A stretch of DNA of 52,222 bases from Phycisphaerae bacterium (GTDB taxonomy: Bacteria; Planctomycetota; Phycisphaerae; JAJVII01): the NCBI GenBank assembly GCA_022072085.1, contig JAJVII010000026.1, positions 1 to 52,222 on the forward strand, in the 5' to 3' direction. The notes beneath the pieces were generated by a model. That model saw only the letters and a list, made by a program, of their open reading frames with translations. It was not told the DNA's origin and ran no database searches. Position numbers and translations under genes: made by a program. Shown piece by piece: positions 4,285-20,663 of the stretch. How positions within the stretch are numbered: the first letter of the stretch is position 1; the number at the start of each line of letters is the position of its first letter.

Positions 4285-5346
4285 ATGGACCGCGACGTGG
4301 GACGCATACTGGACGCCAACTTCAACCGGGCCCGCGAAGGGTTGCGGGTGGCGGAGGAGTTCGCGCGGTTCGTCGCCGAGGACCGCCGGCTGGCCGAGCA
4401 GGCCCGCGGCTTCCGGCACGCGCTGGCCGACGCGGCCCGGCGGCTGGACCCCGACGGCTGCATGCTGGCGGCCCGCGACACCGCCGGCGACCTGGGCACG
4501 GCCGCCCCGCCGAGCGAAGGCGGACGCCGGGCGTCAGCCGGCCAGGTTGCGACCGTCGCCGCCAAGCGAGTCGGCGAGGCGCTGCGCGTGCTCTGCGAAT
4601 ACGCCAAGGTGATCGACGCCGCCGTCGCCGCCGATCTGGAGCGGCTGCGCTATCGCTTCTACGACTGGGAGAAGAGCCTGGCCGGCGCCACCGACCGCGG
4701 GCGGTTCGCCCGCGTGCGGGTCTACCTGCTGGTGACGGCGGAATACTGCCGCGGCGGGGACTGGGAGTCGGCCGTGCGGGCCGCCATCGCCGGCGGCGTC
4801 GATGCGATCCAACTTCGCGAGAAGAACCTGCCCGACGGCGAACTGCTGGCCCGGGCCCGTCGGCTGGTCTCGCTCTGCCGCGAAGCCGGCGTGCTCAGCG
4901 TTATCAACGATCGGCCGGACATCGCCCGGCTGGCTGACGCCGACGGCGTACATGTCGGCACGTCCGACCTGCCCGTGGCGGCGGTGCGCGAGATCGTCAA
5001 GAGCAGCCAGTTCGTCGGGACCAGCACGCACAACGCGGACGAACTGGAGCGGGCGATCGCAGGCGGGCCCGACTACGTCGCCGCCGGGCCGATGTTCGCG
5101 ACGGCCATCAAGCCGGAGTATGGCGTGAGCGGACCGGCCTACGCCCGTGCAGCGATCGCCCGGCTGGACGCGGAGGGCATTCCGCACGTGGCCATCGGCG
5201 GCATCACGCTGGAGAATGTAGGCGAGCTGGCGGCCGCCGGCGTTCGCCGCGTGGCCCTCTGCCGCGGCATCCTGGAGGCCGACGACGTGGCCGCCACGGT
5301 GAGCGCGTTCTCCGAAGCGATGAGCGGGGCAGGCGACGCGCGGTGA
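4285..5346 (+). CDS. thiE: ThiD2-ThiE fusion: thiamine phosphate synthase with N-terminal ThiD2-like domain
   Basis: A 353-residue two-domain protein. Residues 1-135 (beginning ILDANFNRAREGLRVAEEF) match the ThiD2 domain, known in other bacteria as an HMP-phosphate kinase fused to ThiE. Residues 146-350 are thiamine phosphate synthase, which joins HMP-PP and the thiazole phosphate to make TMP. Visible synthase motifs are VDAIQLREKN, VINDRPDIARL, GVHVGTSDLP and YVAAGPMFAT. The fusion would supply the substrate of the second step locally. It appears to be transcribed without a leader. The remaining thiamine genes seen here, thiS and thiG, lie 27 kb away. Confidence 0.92.
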   Translation: MDRDVGRILDANFNRAREGLRVAEEFARFVAEDRRLAEQARGFRHALADAARRLDPDGCMLAARDTAGDLGTAAPPSEGGRRASAGQVATVAAKRVGEALRVLCEYAKVIDAAVAADLERLRYRFYDWEKSLAGATDRGRFARVRVYLLVTAEYCRGGDWESAVRAAIAGGVDAIQLREKNLPDGELLARARRLVSLCREAGVLSVINDRPDIARLADADGVHVGTSDLPVAAVREIVKSSQFVGTSTHNADELERAIAGGPDYVAAGPMFATAIKPEYGVSGPAYARAAIARLDAEGIPHVAIGGITLENVGELAAAGVRRVALCRGILEADDVAATVSAFSEAMSGAGDAR

Positions 5347-11312: not shown

Positions 11313-11924
11313 TCACGAACGTCGCAGTTTCTTGTTGAGGACACGCGCGATCCGCTCGAAGGCAGGAAGATGTCTGCGGAGTTCTTGCGGGTTCAACTTC
11401 CCGACGATTTCGAACGATCGTCTGCCCTTGGCGTAAGGGGCGGCACAGTTGCGCGTCGCATGTGCCAGCGCGTCCTGGATCGCCTCCCGGGTCCGCGACT
11501 CCATGCCGTTGACCGCGGGCAGGGCGGATTCCTGCAAGTGCTGGTCGAAGTTCTCCCGAAGCGTTGCGCGGTCGGTCGCGATCCAGGTTTCCATACAGGT
11601 AACCATCAGCAGGGCCTGCTCGTCCTCGACGTCTGTGGGGCGGTCCCAACCGTCACGGCCCTTAAGGTGCGCCCAGGGCCTTTCGTTGTCCGCGACGGGA
11701 ACCTCGCTGTCGACGAGCAGGGCGACGAACTGGCCCGCGTGAGACGTACGATGTGCCGTTCGGAACATGTCAAAGGTCTTATCGCGTCCGCCGCCCGGGA
11801 CGGCCTGGGGCAACCTCCCCACAAGTCCCATGCGTTGAAACAGTTCCCTGAAGGCTTTTCGCAATCTTGAGTGCAACTCTTTCGAGTCGCCGCCGCCCTC
11901 GATATAGATTCTTGAGCCTACCAA
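11313..11924 (-). CDS. DUF4276-like TOPRIM-type protein, partner of ATPase module 1
   Basis: A 203-residue protein with a TOPRIM-like layout: an early Glu in RIYIEGGGDSKEL (Glu9) and a DxE in FVALLVDSEVPV (Asp72, Glu74), then METWIATD. This matches the DUF4276 family, which is commonly encoded next to AAA ATPases and is proposed to be a nuclease. The start is TTG 11924, overlapping the ATPase stop (TTGGTAG), which implies translational coupling; an ATG 60 bases upstream, inside the ATPase gene, is the alternative. Nuclease activity is inferred, not shown. Confidence 0.72.
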   Translation of the reverse strand: MVGSRIYIEGGGDSKELHSRLRKAFRELFQRMGLVGRLPQAVPGGGRDKTFDMFRTAHRTSHAGQFVALLVDSEVPVADNERPWAHLKGRDGWDRPTDVEDEQALLMVTCMETWIATDRATLRENFDQHLQESALPAVNGMESRTREAIQDALAHATRNCAAPYAKGRRSFEIVGKLNPQELRRHLPAFERIARVLNKKLRRS

Positions 11925-13090
11925 CGCGTGCCCCCGATCTGGCCGCGCGTCCACAGTTCGCCCAGACGGTACTTCTCCAGCCAAGCTGCCAGTTCCTTCG
12001 CGTCAAGCCGGCGCATCGTCGTCTGCCCGCCGTGCTTCTCGACGACGACGACAGACTCGGGCTGTTCGGTCAGGGCGTCCACGAGGATGTCGGAGTGTGT
12101 GGTCACGACAAGTTGGGTCCGCGCGGAGGCGGCGATCATGAGGTCAGCCAACTTGGGCAGCATGTCGGGGTGGAGCCCGAGTTCTGGTTCCTCGATGCAG
12201 ATCAGCGGCGGCGGCTCCGGGTCGCAGAGGATGGCCAACAGGCAGAGATACCGCAGCGTCCCATCGGACAACCGCCCGGCCGGGATGATGAAGTCCCGCT
12301 CGGTGAGGAACAACTCGACGGTCCCGCCCTTGACCCGTACGTCGAAATCCTCCAGTCCTTCGTAGAGGTCGCGCAGCCGTTCGATGATGACCTTCTTGGC
12401 TGCCGGGAGGCTTCGTAGATGGTTTAGGTAAAGTCCCAGATTGGAGAAGTCTTCCTCCAGTCGGCTACCGGGCAAGTCGGCCGCTTGTGGCATCCGGAAG
12501 ATCGGATTTCGCCCGAAGGCCCAATCTCGGTAAAGCATGAGTGTTGGATAGAGGGTAGAGAGGTAGAAGAGATCAGGGTATAGATAGGGGTCTCTCAACT
12601 GGGAGACAATGGATTCATCATGATCAAGCCCCTCGGCATGCAAACTAAGGACGTGTCGGCGCCCCCGCTTGTCCACGCGATCAAGGACTGGCTCGCCTTG
12701 GGGAAGTCTGTGAATGCGGCGAGGCAACTCGGAGGAGGTGGTCCTAATCTGTTCGTCCACCAATTTGAATTGGCCTCGGTTTTGACGGAACTCGATCAAA
12801 TGATCCAGCATGGCTTCAGTCTTCGGCCCTTCTAATGTGGCCTTGATGCTTCCCGTTCCAGACGGCGCGCCCTTCCATATCCACTCACTGATTCCTCCAC
12901 TTCCTTTTCGACGGATTGGGTTAGCGAGTTTCGTCGCCGACGAGCGCAGTAGATCGATAGCCTCAACAAGGTTCGATTTCCCCGAGCCGTTGGGGCCGAT
13001 CAGGACGTTCAGGGGACGCATCTGGAGCGGGGGCGTCTCGGGGCCGAAGGAGAGCAGGCCACGCAGCGTCAGTTCGTGGATCAGCGGCAT
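11918..13090 (-). CDS. AAA_21/RecF-like ATPase of module 1
   Basis: A 390-residue SMC/RecF/OLD-type ATPase. Walker A GPNGSGKS is at 32-39, an ABC-like signature SDGT at 275-278, Walker B LICIEEPELGLHP at 296-308 and the H-loop TTHSD at 330-334, so all catalytic parts are intact. The inserted middle is helical. It is coupled to the DUF4276-like gene by a 7-base overlap. ATPase plus TOPRIM-type protein is the architecture of OLD-like, PARIS and similar anti-phage systems; that role is inferred here. It starts 14 bases after the CvpA-like gene. Confidence 0.85.
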   Translation of the reverse strand: MPLIHELTLRGLLSFGPETPPLQMRPLNVLIGPNGSGKSNLVEAIDLLRSSATKLANPIRRKGSGGISEWIWKGAPSGTGSIKATLEGPKTEAMLDHLIEFRQNRGQFKLVDEQIRTTSSELPRRIHRLPQGEPVLDRVDKRGRRHVLSLHAEGLDHDESIVSQLRDPYLYPDLFYLSTLYPTLMLYRDWAFGRNPIFRMPQAADLPGSRLEEDFSNLGLYLNHLRSLPAAKKVIIERLRDLYEGLEDFDVRVKGGTVELFLTERDFIIPAGRLSDGTLRYLCLLAILCDPEPPPLICIEEPELGLHPDMLPKLADLMIAASARTQLVVTTHSDILVDALTEQPESVVVVEKHGGQTTMRRLDAKELAAWLEKYRLGELWTRGQIGGTRW

Positions 13091-14899: not shown

Positions 14900-16666
14900 T
14901 CACTTGCTCTCGCGGAACACGCGAAGCACCTCGTTGATGCTCGTCTCGCCGGCCATCACCTTTCGCAGGGCCTCCTCCTGGAGGTAGAGCATCTTCTGCG
15001 AGCGGCAGTACTGCTTGATCTCGGAGGCCGGGGCGTTGCTCACGACCAGCCGGCGCAGTTCGTCGTCGATCACCAGCGTCTCGTAGATGCCGGTCCGTCC
15101 GCAGTAGCCCGTGCCCTGGCACTTGGGGCAGACGACCGGGTTGCCCTTCTCGTCGACCAGCGGCTTGCTCGGCGGGCGGTAGAGCCGCTCGATGCGATCA
15201 GCCGGCAGGTTCAACTTTCGCAGCAGTTCCGGGTCGGGGCGGTAGGCCTCGCGGCACTCGGGGCAGATCTTGCGAACCAGCGTCTGGGCGAAGATCAGCC
15301 TCAGCGGCGCCATGGCCAGTTTCAGGTCGCCCACCAGCGCCGCCCAGCGGGCCAGCAGGGTGAAGGTGTCCTTGCCGGCCATCTGCACGTAGTACTTCGT
15401 GTGCTCCAGCGCCGACTGGGCGATGAGCTGGGCCGTCTCCTTGTCCTTGCACAGGCTCACGCCGACCACGTCGGGCCCGCGGCGGACGATGGACTGCATT
15501 GCCCGGGCGAACGATACGCTCTCGTCGCTGTCGTTGGCCTCGTAGTGATGCTGTGTGATGTTCTCCAGGTCGGCCTCGGGCTGCTGCTCGAGGGTCTGGA
15601 TGTTGGTCATGAACGCGTCGTGAGCCCGCAGCATGTGGTAGAAGCTCGTCGTCGAGCCCGCGGCGGCGGCCGCCCCGGTGATCAGCACGCCCCCCTCGCT
15701 GCGGCGAAATTCCTTGAGCGCCTCCTGCTGCCGCTCGGTCATGCCCAGGGTTTCCAGGGTCAGCCGCTCGGCCAGGTTCTCGATCAGCACCACCAGCGAC
15801 TCGCCGGCGCGCGAACCGCTGGTCTTCACCGTTATCGTCAGCCGACGGCTCGGTTCCTGCACCTTGAGCATGCCCTCCTGCGGCCGGCGGCGGTCGGCGA
15901 CGTCCAGGCCCGCCGACTGCTTGACGTAGGCGATCACCAGTTCGCCCACGCGGCGTTCGAGCTGCTGCGGCTCGCTGGTCACCCCGTCGGTGGTGTACTG
16001 GAGTGCGATCGCCTGCCCGGCCGGCAGCAGCGTCAGCCTCTCGGCCCGCCGCTCGATGGCCGTGAGCAGGACTTCCTGCCCCGTGACGTAACCCTCGTAG
16101 AGGGGGTCCTCGGAGGCCAGCGGGGGAATCTCCAGGTCGCTTCCGCGCGTGCCGGCGCCGGGGCGGAGCAGGTGGATCGACTCGGGAACGCTTTCGGGCT
16201 CGCGCGAGCGGCGCGAGAACAGACGGGCCATGTGCTCGCCGGTCAGCACGCGGCTGTTGGGCGAGACAAGCGGGTTACGCAGGTAGACATAGGTGTATCC
16301 CGCGCCGAAGGCGGTGATAGCGAACGCGAGCAGGCCGATGAAGAACCAGGGGATGACCAGCCACAGCAGGACGCCCAGCGCCCCCGAGCCGACGATGACG
16401 CCGTTCCAGGTGAAGCGGCGGAGGTGCAGGCGCATGCAGTCCTTGTCGACCCACTGGCAGATCGCCAGCCAGGCGATGACCATCAGGGCCATCACGATCC
16501 ACTTGAAGAGGGAGAAGTAGCCGCCCTGGGCGGGCAGGTCGCCCGCGGCGGCCAGGACGGCCGACAGCGATGGGATCGTTGTGATCACGTCCAGTTGCCT
16601 CAGGACCGGGACCGGGACGCGCCGGCGCCGCGCTCCGCCCGATGCGGACGCGCCCGCGGCCGTCAC
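14900..16666 (-). CDS. membrane-anchored GspE/PilB-like protein with degenerate ATPase motifs
   Basis: A 588-residue relative of the type II secretion/type IV pilus assembly ATPases. The tetracysteine zinc site is kept (Cys468, Cys471, Cys513, Cys516, followed by GYCGRTGIYET). The nucleotide site is not: Walker A reads GAAAAAGST at 331-339, with Ser in place of the essential Lys, and the usual GEIRD Walker B reads GVSLCKD at 402-408. Three hydrophobic segments (about 53-73, 90-106 and 107-126), absent from normal PilB, precede the domain. It overlaps the PilT-type gene by 4 bases (ATGA). It is probably a non-hydrolysing scaffold or regulator. Confidence 0.8.
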   Translation of the reverse strand: MTAAGASASGGARRRRVPVPVLRQLDVITTIPSLSAVLAAAGDLPAQGGYFSLFKWIVMALMVIAWLAICQWVDKDCMRLHLRRFTWNGVIVGSGALGVLLWLVIPWFFIGLLAFAITAFGAGYTYVYLRNPLVSPNSRVLTGEHMARLFSRRSREPESVPESIHLLRPGAGTRGSDLEIPPLASEDPLYEGYVTGQEVLLTAIERRAERLTLLPAGQAIALQYTTDGVTSEPQQLERRVGELVIAYVKQSAGLDVADRRRPQEGMLKVQEPSRRLTITVKTSGSRAGESLVVLIENLAERLTLETLGMTERQQEALKEFRRSEGGVLITGAAAAAGSTTSFYHMLRAHDAFMTNIQTLEQQPEADLENITQHHYEANDSDESVSFARAMQSIVRRGPDVVGVSLCKDKETAQLIAQSALEHTKYYVQMAGKDTFTLLARWAALVGDLKLAMAPLRLIFAQTLVRKICPECREAYRPDPELLRKLNLPADRIERLYRPPSKPLVDEKGNPVVCPKCQGTGYCGRTGIYETLVIDDELRRLVVSNAPASEIKQYCRSQKMLYLQEEALRKVMAGETSINEVLRVFRESK

Positions 16667-17799
16667 GAACTGCTGGTTCGGATGCCCTTGAGCCGCATTT
16701 GAAGCTCGTTGGGGTTGGGCGAGTTGGCCATCGCTTCGCTCAGCGAGACCATCTCCCGCTCGACCAATTCCTGGAGCGCCGCGTTGAAGTCCTGCATGCC
16801 GCCCTGGCGGTCGGAGCGGATCACGTCCAGCAGTTCCTCCTCGCGGCCCTCGGCGATCATTTTGCGGGCCGACGCGTTGACAATCAATACCTCAACCGCC
16901 GGAACCCGCGAGATTCCCTCGGCGATGCTCGGCAGCAGCTTGAGCCCGATCACCGCCCGCAGGTTGAACGTCAGTGCCTGGCGGACCAGGTCGCGGCTGG
17001 CTTCGGGGAACAGGTCGAGCACGCGGCTGAGCGTGCTGGCGCTGCCCGAGGCGTGCACCGTGCCGAAGACCAGGTGTCCGGTCTCGGCTGCGTGCAGCGC
17101 CGCCTCGAACGTTTCGCGGTCGCGCATCTCGCCGATCAGCACGACGTCGGGGTCTTCGCGCATCAGGAACTTGAGCGCCGCCTGGAAGTCGGCCACGTCG
17201 ATGCCGATCTCCCGCTGGTTGACGAAGGCCTTCTTGTCCTCGTAGAGGTACTCGATCGGATCCTCGACGGTGACGATGTGGCACGCCCGCGTCCGGTTGA
17301 TGTGCTCGATCATCGACGCGATGGTCGTGCTCTTGCCCGAGCCGGTGATGCCGCTGACCAGGATCAGCCCCTGCCGCAACTGGGCCAGCCGCTCGACCAC
17401 CGGCGGCAGATGCAGGCTGGCGAAGTCCGGGATATTCCGACTGACCCGCCGGGCCGCGACGCTGGTCAGCGCGCGCTGGCGGAAGATGTTGATGCGGAAA
17501 CGGTCGCCGCCGGGAACCTGGTGGGCCAGGTCCAGTGCTCCGTTGCGGCGGTAGTAGTCCTGTTGCTCGGGCGTGGTGATCTCGAAGATGAGTTCCTCGA
17601 CCTGCTTCTGGCTCAGCGGGGTCGTCCGCAGCGACTGGATGTCCCCGCCGATGCGCAGCCGCGGCGACGAGTTGGCCTTGAGGTGCAGGTCCGACGCGTT
17701 GACCTTGCTCACCTGGCGGAACCACTCGTTGATCTTGGGCTCGGCGTCGCGAGGCCGGTCCTGGTGGTGATCGATCGGAGGCGGCGGTTGCTCGGTCAT
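16663..17799 (-). CDS. pilT: PilT/PilU-type twitching motility ATPase
   Basis: A 378-residue hexameric retraction-ATPase type protein. Walker A GITGSGKS is at 150-157, Asp boxes include VEDPIEYLYEDKK, Walker B VLIGEMRD is at 220-227, and the His box is HLVFGTVHASGS. All catalytic residues are present, unlike in the adjacent PilB-like protein. PilT depolymerises the type IV pilus; no pilin is encoded in the window, so it may serve a distant pilus or secretion apparatus. The start is ATG 17799, and it is the first gene of a five- or six-gene minus-strand run. Confidence 0.88.
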   Translation of the reverse strand: MTEQPPPPIDHHQDRPRDAEPKINEWFRQVSKVNASDLHLKANSSPRLRIGGDIQSLRTTPLSQKQVEELIFEITTPEQQDYYRRNGALDLAHQVPGGDRFRINIFRQRALTSVAARRVSRNIPDFASLHLPPVVERLAQLRQGLILVSGITGSGKSTTIASMIEHINRTRACHIVTVEDPIEYLYEDKKAFVNQREIGIDVADFQAALKFLMREDPDVVLIGEMRDRETFEAALHAAETGHLVFGTVHASGSASTLSRVLDLFPEASRDLVRQALTFNLRAVIGLKLLPSIAEGISRVPAVEVLIVNASARKMIAEGREEELLDVIRSDRQGGMQDFNAALQELVEREMVSLSEAMANSPNPNELQMRLKGIRTSSS

Positions 17800-17820: not shown

Positions 17821-17837
17821 TGTCAACGCAGTTGACA
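17821..17837. promoter_or_regulatory. perfect inverted repeat (operator-like) at the small RNA promoter
   Basis: TGTCAAC-GCA-GTTGACA, with seven-base arms and a three-base centre. It overlaps the -35 hexamer of the plus-strand promoter and lies 22 bases upstream of the pilT start on the other strand, so a bound protein could affect both. No known regulator is assigned. Confidence 0.5.
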
Positions 17838-17859
17838 AACGCGGCAAATAGGTCATACT
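17832..17859 (+). promoter_or_regulatory. promoter of a candidate small RNA
   Basis: A perfect -35 TTGACA (17832-17837), a 16-base spacer and CATACT (17854-17859) point on the plus strand, away from pilT and into a region with no plus-strand gene. Predicted start of transcription is near 17866. Confidence 0.6.
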
Positions 17860-17865
17860 TGAGTC

Positions 17866-17942
17866 AGTTCTCTGTAGGTGAGAGTCGGCTTCATGCCGTG
17901 ACGTCGCCAAAAGCGACCTGGCCTACAGAGGGCTTATTTTTT
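17866..17942 (+). ncRNA. candidate structured small RNA, three-way junction
   Basis: A closing 9-bp helix (CTCTGTAGG 17870-17878 with CCTACAGAG 17922-17930) encloses two hairpins: CGGC-TTCAT-GCCG (17886-17898) and GTCGC-CAAAA-GCGAC (17903-17917). The helix is followed by GGC and a T-rich run at 17934-17942, so the structure would also work as an intrinsic terminator. With the promoter just upstream this is a complete transcription unit of about 77 bases. It matches no riboswitch or standard small RNA that I know (not SRP RNA, 6S, tmRNA or TPP). It lies between pilT and the TOPRIM gene of module 2, on the opposite strand to both. Confidence 0.6.
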
Positions 17943-17972
17943 GTGCAAGTCTTCCTTCGCTCAAGCCATTTC

Positions 17973-18683
17973 TTATCCCGGCAAGCCTTTCAGTGCTACG
18001 AGGAATTCGACCTCAAACCTCTTGGCTTCTCCAAACCTTCCGGCCACACGCGGCCACGCATCCTCAAGTCTAGCCTGGTGATCCAGGTAGTCTCTCTGCG
18101 ACTTGCGGATTCGGATGCGCTTGGGTTGCTGGCCGAGCCGTGATTCGGGATTGGGCAGGCACTCTCCGGCCCTCTGCATGATCCTGTCGTTTGGGAACAG
18201 ACTTGCCACGACCCAGGCCTCCGTGCTCTTGGACGGCATGCAGATGACGGCCTTGGCAGGGGACGCTACCTCCCCGCACCAACTAAGCAGAACAGCACGC
18301 AAAGCATCAGTCGTATTGCCTGCCGGCGGACAAGGGCGTTTGCACGGCAACTTGCCGTCCTCAGGCTCCGGATCAAGTGATGAATCGTCGCTGTATTTCT
18401 TGTCTGCCACGTCCGCGTCAAGGTGAAGGAGCAGCAAGTCGTGATTCTCAAAGAGCAGGGCGTCCTGACTCAGACGTCCCGATCCGCGAACCGCAGCCTG
18501 CTTGCACCAGCGGTAGACGCCGGTCCACCCGGCCCCAAGAGGGCCGAAAGCCACAGAGCCCTCGGGCTGCAACTGCTGAATCACAAAGGGACGATCTTCC
18601 AACAGGCTCTGGAGGGCCGCCTGGATCACGATTCGATCCGTCGGGCCTTCCGCGACCAGGGCGATTCGGAGCGGGTCAGACAT
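17973..18683 (-). CDS. TOPRIM-like protein of module 2
   Basis: A 236-residue protein with TOPRIM hallmarks: Glu12 in IALVAEGPTDRIVIQAAL, the DxD in LLLLHLDADV (Asp89, Asp91) and a later KSTEAWVVASLF resembling DUF3226/DUF4276-type proteins. The start ATG 18683 overlaps the ATPase stop by 8 bases (ATGTCTGA), so the pair is translationally coupled. Base composition is visibly lower in GC than in the pil genes. A nuclease role is inferred from the fold and from partnership with an SMC-type ATPase. It is only weakly similar to the TOPRIM protein of module 1, so the two modules are not a recent duplication. Confidence 0.72.
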   Translation of the reverse strand: MSDPLRIALVAEGPTDRIVIQAALQSLLEDRPFVIQQLQPEGSVAFGPLGAGWTGVYRWCKQAAVRGSGRLSQDALLFENHDLLLLHLDADVADKKYSDDSSLDPEPEDGKLPCKRPCPPAGNTTDALRAVLLSWCGEVASPAKAVICMPSKSTEAWVVASLFPNDRIMQRAGECLPNPESRLGQQPKRIRIRKSQRDYLDHQARLEDAWPRVAGRFGEAKRFEVEFLVALKGLPG

Positions 18684-19875
18684 TCGGAACGCCCCCCAAC
18701 AGACCATTCATCCACATTCGAGACAACGTCCAATCCTTATCCGGCCTTCTTGCAATTGCCGTCTGGAGGTCGATGGATCGAACCACCGTGTGTCCCTGAT
18801 TGTCTCGATCCACGGCAAATAGCCGGACATCTGGTTGGTCCAGGGGAATTCCGTCTAGGACGGCCGGGTTGTGGACCGTCAGTAGCCACTGCCGAGCGTT
18901 GCGACTACCGCTAGTCCATGAACACAGTCGGGTCATGATGCGTTGCGCCAGCCGTGGGTTGAGGGCCTGATCCACATTGTCCATGGCCAGACAGCGGGGG
19001 GATTTGGGATGCAACGCAAGCACGGCGCAGTAGAGGATGTAAAGGGCACCCTCGCTGGCGTCGTACCCGGTGAGGCGATTGCGCCGTTTGGCCATGAACC
19101 TGTCAACGAATTGAATCACGAGGCGCGAACGGGCTGCCGACGGTGAGAGCGGGACGCCCACAGACGGTTCTGCTGAGAAATCATTGGCCCAGTCGATGAG
19201 TTCCCTAACTTCTTCCAAGGACTTAGCGAGAGGCGAATCCTCTTCTTCTTGTGCATCCAGGAGTTCTTCAATCGCCTCCGGCAGACGCCCCCCCCCAAGC
19301 CCTACTGGTTCCCGTGTCTGAAGGTCCTGCACGAGCCCTCGGAGGGAAGGTGTGTTGGGGCAGTGGATGCTGTAATGGCGAAGCTCATCCATTAGGAGCA
19401 AGGCCGAATCGTTTGGCTTGAGATCCACCGTCTTTAGCGCTGCCAGTCCTTGCTCCTGATTGTGCTTTCCGGCGCTTGTTGTCGAACGAGTGACGACCTG
19501 ATCCTTCGGTTTCGGGCCTCGCCGGAAATTCTCAGTCTTGAATCGCCAAGCTGGGCTGGGGTTGTTGAGAGGATTCCAGAGCGTCACTTCATACGCCGCG
19601 CCAGCGGTGCTCTCAGCTCCAAAAAAAATGTGCGGTGAAGCCGGACTCTTCGGAAATGCGGACTTGTAGAGCCTTGGAACCCCGGGGCGAACGCCGCGAC
19701 GGAGCAGAGTCTCGTCATCGACACGCCCGAAGGCGGCGGCTCCAAGCACTCCAACCGCCTCCAGAAGATTGCTCTTCCCACTCCCATTGGCGCCGACAAA
19801 TACGTTTATCCGCCCCAAATCAAGTTCAAGCTTCAAGAGCGACTTGAAACACTCGATCCTCAGTTTCTTAAGCAT
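18676..19875 (-). CDS. AAA ATPase of module 2, containing a G9 tract
   Basis: A 399-residue SMC/RecF-like ATPase. Walker A GANGSGKS is at 28-35; the Walker B region is CLAMDNVDQALNP (about 295-307), with Asn in the place of the usual catalytic Glu; the H-loop is TVHNP (333-337). The start was set at ATG 19875, with AGGA 4 bases upstream. It begins 20 bases after the hisF stop. A run of nine G (complement of 19288-19296) and a run of eight T (complement of 19621-19628) lie in the coding sequence. GC is lower than in hisF, suggesting acquisition. Confidence 0.85.
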   Translation of the reverse strand: MLKKLRIECFKSLLKLELDLGRINVFVGANGSGKSNLLEAVGVLGAAAFGRVDDETLLRRGVRPGVPRLYKSAFPKSPASPHIFFGAESTAGAAYEVTLWNPLNNPSPAWRFKTENFRRGPKPKDQVVTRSTTSAGKHNQEQGLAALKTVDLKPNDSALLLMDELRHYSIHCPNTPSLRGLVQDLQTREPVGLGGGRLPEAIEELLDAQEEEDSPLAKSLEEVRELIDWANDFSAEPSVGVPLSPSAARSRLVIQFVDRFMAKRRNRLTGYDASEGALYILYCAVLALHPKSPRCLAMDNVDQALNPRLAQRIMTRLCSWTSGSRNARQWLLTVHNPAVLDGIPLDQPDVRLFAVDRDNQGHTVVRSIDLQTAIARRPDKDWTLSRMWMNGLLGGVPNV

Positions 19876-19895: not shown

Positions 19896-20663
19896 TCACA
19901 GCCGCACGGGCACGCCGCGGTCGGCCAGGTAGCGTTTGGTCTGCTCGATGCTGTAGGTGCCGAAGTGGAAGATGCTCGCCGCCAGCGCCGCGTCCGCGCC
20001 GCCGCGGGTCAGCACGTCGTGCATGTGCTCCGGTCCGCCCGCGCCGCCGCTGGCCACCACCGGCACGCTCACCGCGTCGGCCACCGCGCGGGTCATCTCG
20101 ATATCGTAGCCGTCCTTCGTTCCGTCGGCGTCCATGCTGGTCAGCACGATCTCGCCGGCGCCGAGTTGCTCGACCCGCCGGGCCCAGGGGACCGCCTCCA
20201 GCCCCGTCGGTACGCGGCCGCCGTCGATGAACACCTCCCACACCGTCCGCCCGTCGCGCTGCACCCGCCGCGGGTCGATGTTCACGACGATGCACTGTCG
20301 GCCGAACTTCTCGGCCGCCTGCCGCACGAAGTCCGGCGTCCGCACCGCCGCCGAGTTGATCGAGACCTTGTCGGCCCCGGCGTTGAGCAGCTTGCGCACG
20401 TCCGAGAGCGTGCGGATGCCCCCGCCGACCGTCAGCGGCATGGCCACCTGCTCGGCCGTCCGGGCCACCACGTCGATCATGATGTCGCGCTTCTCGTGGC
20501 TGGCGGTGATGTCGAGGAAGACGACCTCGTCGGCGCCGGCCTTTTCATAGCCGGCTGCGATCTGCACCGGGTCGCCCGCGTCGCGGAGGTTGATGAAGTT
20601 GACGCCCTTGACCACTCGGCCGGCGTTTACGTCCAGGCAGGGAATGATTCGTTTGGCCAGCAT
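19896..20663 (-). CDS. hisF: imidazole glycerol phosphate synthase subunit HisF
   Basis: A 255-residue TIM-barrel cyclase of histidine biosynthesis, which with HisH converts PRFAR to IGP and AICAR. The catalytic Asp of IIPCLDV (residue 11) and the second Asp in VVNIDPRR are present, with VVASGGAG and the phosphate-binding motifs intact. It is full length. The start has no Shine-Dalgarno, and a -10-like TAAGAT sits 7 bases upstream. It is the only his gene in the window and is followed directly by the ATPase-TOPRIM module. Confidence 0.97.

Follow-up and report, generated by a model that had tools for sequence, protein, structure and literature searches.

Between pilT and a pair of candidate defence genes, a 52,222-nucleotide (nt) stretch of DNA from a Phycisphaerae bacterium (contig JAJVII010000026.1, analysed at its whole length and called the window below) carries a small gene for a structured RNA. 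Our data show that this RNA belongs to a conserved family and that in most other genomes it converges on a gene for a DUF3800 protein. This partner was overlooked in the preliminary description of the window; it is absent here, and a PDC-M31 gene pair stands in its place. Further copies occur in phage genomes, likewise without the protein. We lean, with little more than even confidence, towards a model in which a DUF3800 effector is bound and held in check by the RNA, much as RNAs do in AbiF and type III systems. We are far surer of the RNA gene, and of the family it belongs to, than of this function.

The RNA gene: fold, promoter and terminator

The gene and its signals are laid out as follows.

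17832..17859, plus strand: sigma-70-type promoter TTGACA-16-CATACT; the -10 ends 4 nt before the first position of the RNA model
17864..17941, plus strand: small RNA gene, a three-way junction with its own terminator (span of covariance model R2, 75.2 bits)
17866..17879, plus strand: 5' strand of helix P1, which pairs with 17921-17934, also serves as the terminator stem and shows covariation
17886..17898, plus strand: P2 hairpin CGGC-UUCAU-GCCG, the family's most conserved sequence (YCGGCUYCAUGCCGUG)
17903..17917, plus strand: P3 hairpin GUCGC-CAAAA-GCGAC, variable in length and covarying in relatives
17921..17934, plus strand: 3' strand of P1, from fold and covariation
17935..17941, plus strand: U-run of the intrinsic terminator; the T-rich tail is found in relatives too

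The preliminary description had proposed a structured small RNA gene that stands free, with a promoter and a terminator to itself, and the fold, the promoter, the U-run and the conservation described below all bear this out; its expression we infer. The 9-base-pair (bp) closing helix it reported, CTCTGTAGG with CCTACAGAG (17870-17878 with 17922-17930), is present with two hairpins inside it and the T-run, and lengthens to 14 bp in the predicted fold (17866-17879 with 17921-17934). The U-run TTATTTTTT lies directly 3' of this helix. The minimum free energy is –37.6 kcal/mol (z = –4.8), which none of 200 shuffles equalled. The promoter had been called perfect; this holds for its -35, and the 16-base spacing is as reported, but the promoter as a whole matches the consensus at 10 of 12 positions. 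Within the window, which has 68% G+C, the RNA locus is the sole place where a promoter of at least 10/12 is followed by a long-stem terminator within 160 nt, an arrangement that occurs once in 734 kilobases of background (both strands).

The RNA is single-copy in its genome, and a search of the window against Rfam 15 gave no family match even at E ≤ 10, and the preliminary description knew of no described family of this shape. An Hfq-dependent small RNA was considered and rejected, as no Hfq was found in this genome.

Conservation and covariation

When 397 genomes of the class were searched with a covariance model made from the window sequence alone (R1), full-length relatives came up with E-values down to 6e–10. 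With the model rebuilt from 14 homologues (R2), the RNA is found in 43 of the 397 genomes, across many families. Compensatory changes affect 21 of the 27 pairs in the 14-sequence alignment (6–13 in slid controls). Homologues whose helices change without compensation had been named beforehand as evidence that would speak against the RNA, and this check left the RNA standing; in the alignment of 47 sequences, 21 of 23 base pairs are changed on both sides and compensatory cells number 259 versus 78 in shuffles, figures to be read with the bias towards the model's own structure that comes from fitting both alignments to it. RNAalifold, as an independent prediction on the 14 sequences, returned the same three helices.

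The conserved core consists of GGYGAAnGYCGGCUYCAUGCCGUG and CCUAGCC, while P1 and P3 are freely variable in sequence and keep their pairing. Hexamers resembling a promoter (at least 9/12) stand at the same upstream place in 23 of 41 copies, compared with 2.3% of shuffled upstream sequences. This conservation, of paired helices and of upstream hexamers, is the decisive evidence: it establishes a free-standing small RNA gene, which is presumably expressed. The window copy, at 75 bits, has one of the family's best model scores; all of its helices are intact, and promoter and terminator are kept.

It took a wide search to see this family. BLASTN against 150 relatives gave short matches only, two of which (in genomes G099 and G140) turned out afterwards to be genuine, and R1 gave nothing clear over the 61 nearest relatives, whereas the search of the wider class succeeded. 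Scans with exact patterns from the window's own P1 found no matches because the sequence of P1 varies. BLASTN of the INPHARED phages and of PLSDB added no RNA copies except one on an Annamia plasmid. Low-scoring model matches at loci L177-L181 were taken as noise, those at L217 and L219 are doubtful, and L228 falls within coding sequence and has no model match.

A convergent DUF3800 partner

At 33 of the 42 bacterial RNA copies (a count that takes in locus L207 and both tandem copies of L201) there is a convergent DUF3800 gene; at none is the gene on the same strand. Its stop codon mostly falls 18–24 nt inside the 3' end of the RNA. The overlap reaches 75 nt at L207, and in some copies it is almost nil (–2 to +3) with the whole fold still kept. 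At L201 (G140) two tandem RNA copies (1353-1442 and 1501-1581) stand before one DUF3800 gene, the farther of them 119 nt away.

Of 12 partner proteins tested, every one matches Pfam DUF3800 and also the PADLOC profile for retron type VII, DUF3800_VII (best E-value 1.3e–24 for the latter). They form one subfamily, with the motif FVDEAGDLTLF and invariant acidic residues; no convincing solved structure was found for the partner protein. The same RNA–DUF3800 pair, in the same arrangement, is present on a cyanobacterial plasmid (Annamia, AP025634.1, L230), and the pairing therefore crosses phyla. In AP025634.1 the region that matches DUF3800 is annotated with nothing but short hypothetical proteins, and the gene may be interrupted there. 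The remaining flanking genes vary, with some recurrence of restriction genes (four ResIII and two N6_Mtase among 67 neighbours).

RNA copies without the partner were seen at L189, L200, L211 and L213-L215. A different protein with a DUF3800-like start (VFLDETTR) is encoded at L189 (498-1232, plus strand), convergent and a few hundred bases from the partnerless RNA copy.

Viral copies beside tRNA genes

Scans of IMG/VR with the conserved motif, scored with the model, yielded 14 RNA copies on 13 viral contigs. Scores are 50-56 bits for four of the copies, 34-43 for two and 20-26 for the rest. No DUF3800 gene of the partner subfamily was found at these 13 loci. A tRNA gene lies within 250 nt of 10 of the 14 copies, a zone that makes up 6.5% of the loci (binomial p ~1e–9, only indicative, since the figure assumes independent copies and the contigs L220/L229/L224, like L184/L186, are related). 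In the phage tRNA cluster of L226 (1319-2054) two RNA copies alternate with tRNA-Met, tRNA-Phe, tRNA-Ser and tRNA-Tyr, while the RNA abuts tRNA-Glu at L186 and tRNA-Leu at L225. The contig L184 also carries an above-threshold Rfam DUF3800-VIII RNA (4303-4368, minus strand); it shares its strand with the new RNA, at a distance of about 510 nt.

An additional small structured unit (ATCCGAAACC-stem-...-AGGAC) stands beside the new RNA at L184, L186 and L222; by eye it is like DUF3800-VIII.

Possible roles as inhibitor, cofactor or antisense RNA

In the inhibitor model, a complete module would consist of two convergent genes overlapping by ~20 bp, one for the DUF3800 protein, a probable nuclease, and one for an RNA of 75-90 nt. 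The RNA gene has a promoter to itself, and the closing helix with the U-run ends the transcript; the folded RNA would bind the DUF3800 protein and keep it inactive. Phage infection might upset the balance of RNA and protein and so release DUF3800, as with AbiF or type III RNA antitoxins, and phages, which have the RNA next to tRNA genes but not the protein, might use it as a mimic to silence DUF3800 effectors of the host. The AbiF toxin is neutralised by the RNA RCd22 through direct binding (PMC12373285), and phage PhiTE escapes ToxIN via a pseudo-ToxI RNA (PMC3475682).

Several observations count against the inhibitor model. The RNA is convergent here, while in type III systems and in AbiF it lies upstream of the toxin and on the same strand. 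Several viral matches score just 20-26 bits, which is weak, and it was the conserved motif itself that retrieved them; the U-run is missing from most viral copies, so their maturation would have to differ. No DUF3800 match or fragment was detected in the window, and the genome's two other DUF3800 proteins belong to other subfamilies, unrecognised by the partner profile. This makes the window copy an orphan, though one whose fold is intact.

It might be argued instead that the RNA is a cofactor or guide that activates the DUF3800 nuclease, as happens in other RNA-guided enzymes of RNase H fold, with the phage copies as decoys. For a DUF3800 protein a published AlphaFold analysis reported an RNase H-like fold and noted a link to non-coding RNA (PMC10910872). 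The fold, and the roles suggested there in interference or in the handling of CRISPR RNA (crRNA), would suit activation, and the invariant P2 hairpin and CCUAGCC strand do look like a protein-binding core. A guide-like variable segment is absent, however: nothing follows the RNA's own terminator, and its variable part is the base-paired P3. A lone RNA borne by phages suits an inhibitor at least equally, and we consider activation unlikely. Antisense control of the convergent DUF3800 mRNA, as in type I systems, appears improbable to us. It would make use of the tail-to-tail overlap of ~20 nt in most copies, but this overlap takes in the 3' end of the RNA only and leaves out P2, the most conserved part; copies with almost no overlap still have the full fold, and for phage and orphan copies there is no such mRNA. 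We give next to no credence to a riboswitch or attenuator, a REP/REPIN-type repeat or a plain terminator. Although a U-run follows P1 and both halves start with CTCTGTAGG, like an inverted REP pair, the single copy in the genome refutes a REPIN/BIME repeat and the compensatory changes in three helices refute a plain terminator. As for a riboswitch in cis, already discounted in the preliminary description, no plus-strand gene lies downstream, and the partner conserved in relatives is convergent with the RNA rather than downstream of it.

A Pseudomonas REPIN at L114 (2892-2984) gave a weak R1 match, its GTAGG...CCTAC helices mimicking P1.

Relation to known RNAs and defence systems

Weinberg et al. 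reportedly described DUF3800-associated RNAs in 2017 (Rfam DUF3800-I RF02969, -VIII RF03075 and -IX RF02968). These are likewise structured small RNA genes beside DUF3800 genes, and DUF3800-VIII shares the phage RNA/tRNA cluster of L184 with the new RNA. What sets the new RNA apart is its distinct three-way junction, its own conserved P2 and its convergent overlap with one DUF3800 subfamily. The Rfam models DUF3800-I to -XI gave no match in the window (E ≤ 10) or at nine loci, and L164 had only a chance match to a long non-coding RNA. As in DUF3800-associated RNAs generally, the helices covary and a DUF3800 gene is the neighbour across the family, though not at the window locus itself. The RNA is DUF3800-associated in kind and in no Rfam 15 family; an earlier mention in the literature is possible.

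The AbiF/Abi_2 system with RCd22 (abiF motif, RF03085) also pairs a small RNA that has its own promoter and terminator with one effector family. It differs in its effector (Abi_2, linked to Cas13 ancestors), in the RNA being upstream and co-oriented, and in RNA structure. ToxIN and the pseudo-ToxI of PhiTE offer another likeness, as an RNA restrains a nuclease and a phage has an RNA mimic without the toxin (PMC3475682); ToxI, however, is a tandem-repeat pseudoknot upstream of its toxin, whereas the new RNA is a single three-way junction converging on the gene. Type III RNAs lie upstream, co-oriented and usually in tandem repeats; ours is always convergent and a single unit in nearly all copies. 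It would resemble an RNA antitoxin in its working and yet stand, by this architecture, outside type III systems. With retron type VII (RT-DUF3800 in PADLOC, RT being reverse transcriptase) the partner proteins have the DUF3800_VII profile in common; at the loci read, no reverse transcriptase was found beside the RNA, either by motif scan of flanking open reading frames or among the 25 Pfam families listed.

Catalogues of DUF3800-linked RNAs exist, and the open literature searched reports no tested function for them. What the family described here adds is a partner subfamily with sharp limits, a convergent architecture that is fixed, and protein-less phage copies beside tRNAs and a second DUF3800-type RNA. 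It leads to a concrete hypothesis, that DUF3800 proteins are RNA-controlled antiviral effectors countered by RNA mimics of phages, and it suggests phage tRNA arrays as a place to seek further RNA inhibitors of host defences. We also put forward, tentatively and at less than even confidence, a broader proposal: the DUF3800 nuclease and its convergent RNA might form a new immune module, which phages would defeat by gathering cognate RNAs for several DUF3800 types; their tRNA arrays would then serve at the same time as stores of RNA antitoxin mimics, with solo chromosomal copies being immunity RNAs kept by the host.

The window locus and its neighbours

The surroundings of the RNA gene in the window include the following features.

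16663..17799, minus strand: pilT, the other border of the insertion
17821..17837, no strand: 7-3-7 palindrome TGTCAAC-GCA-GTTGACA, overlapping the -35; present, not conserved
17923..17949, minus strand: end of a reading frame, ...LAQKISPL*; the stop codon lies 18 nt within the RNA, the position of the DUF3800 stop in L162 and L163
17973..18683, minus strand: PDC-M31B (TOPRIM-like) gene, converging on the RNA at the place of the relatives' DUF3800
18676..19875, minus strand: PDC-M31A (AAA_21 ATPase) gene, by PADLOC
19896..20663, minus strand: hisF, which in nine relatives adjoins pilT on its upstream side

PDC-M31A, PDC-M31B and the RNA form a block between hisF and pilT, and because these two genes are directly adjacent in nine relatives, the block is an insertion here. 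The PDC-M31 pair is a two-gene candidate defence module according to PADLOC. That the RNA is functionally part of this ATPase/TOPRIM module might be suggested by the shared block and by its convergence on M31B at the usual DUF3800 place. Against it, R1 found no clear copy in 81 PDC-M31 loci, R2 found none in 61 of these, and no DUF3800 of the partner subfamily occurs at PDC-M31 loci; we hold such membership to be very improbable. Covariance models likewise found no RNA copy upstream of pilT in the orthologues fetched from relatives, and the idea that pilT or the TOPRIM gene is a conserved neighbour of the RNA has to be abandoned.

If the inhibitor model applies, the window would have lost its effector, with the PDC-M31 pair in its place, and the RNA may still protect against incoming DUF3800 modules or may be a young remnant. 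A dead remnant after replacement of DUF3800, which would be compatible with the inhibitor model for the family, fits the absence of the effector and the existence of other partnerless copies; the intact helices, the high model score and the retained promoter and terminator speak against decay, and we find it rather doubtful. The KISPL* end is a weak hint of a lost DUF3800 gene and is not independent evidence, since it falls within the helix and U-run that are conserved in the RNA itself, and this conservation would be explanation enough.

The palindrome over the -35 had been described as an operator. It does exist and does overlap the -35, but palindromes of 7 bp are at chance level in the window (94 seen, 90 expected), this one is not repeated in the genome above control, and of 38 other RNA copies just 1 has a comparable palindrome there. 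On these three results a conserved operator is not supported, and the idea of a regulon operator was rejected. Elsewhere in the window, at 11918-13090 on the minus strand, a second AAA_21 ATPase gives a strong PADLOC match to HEC-01A (E-value 1e–154).
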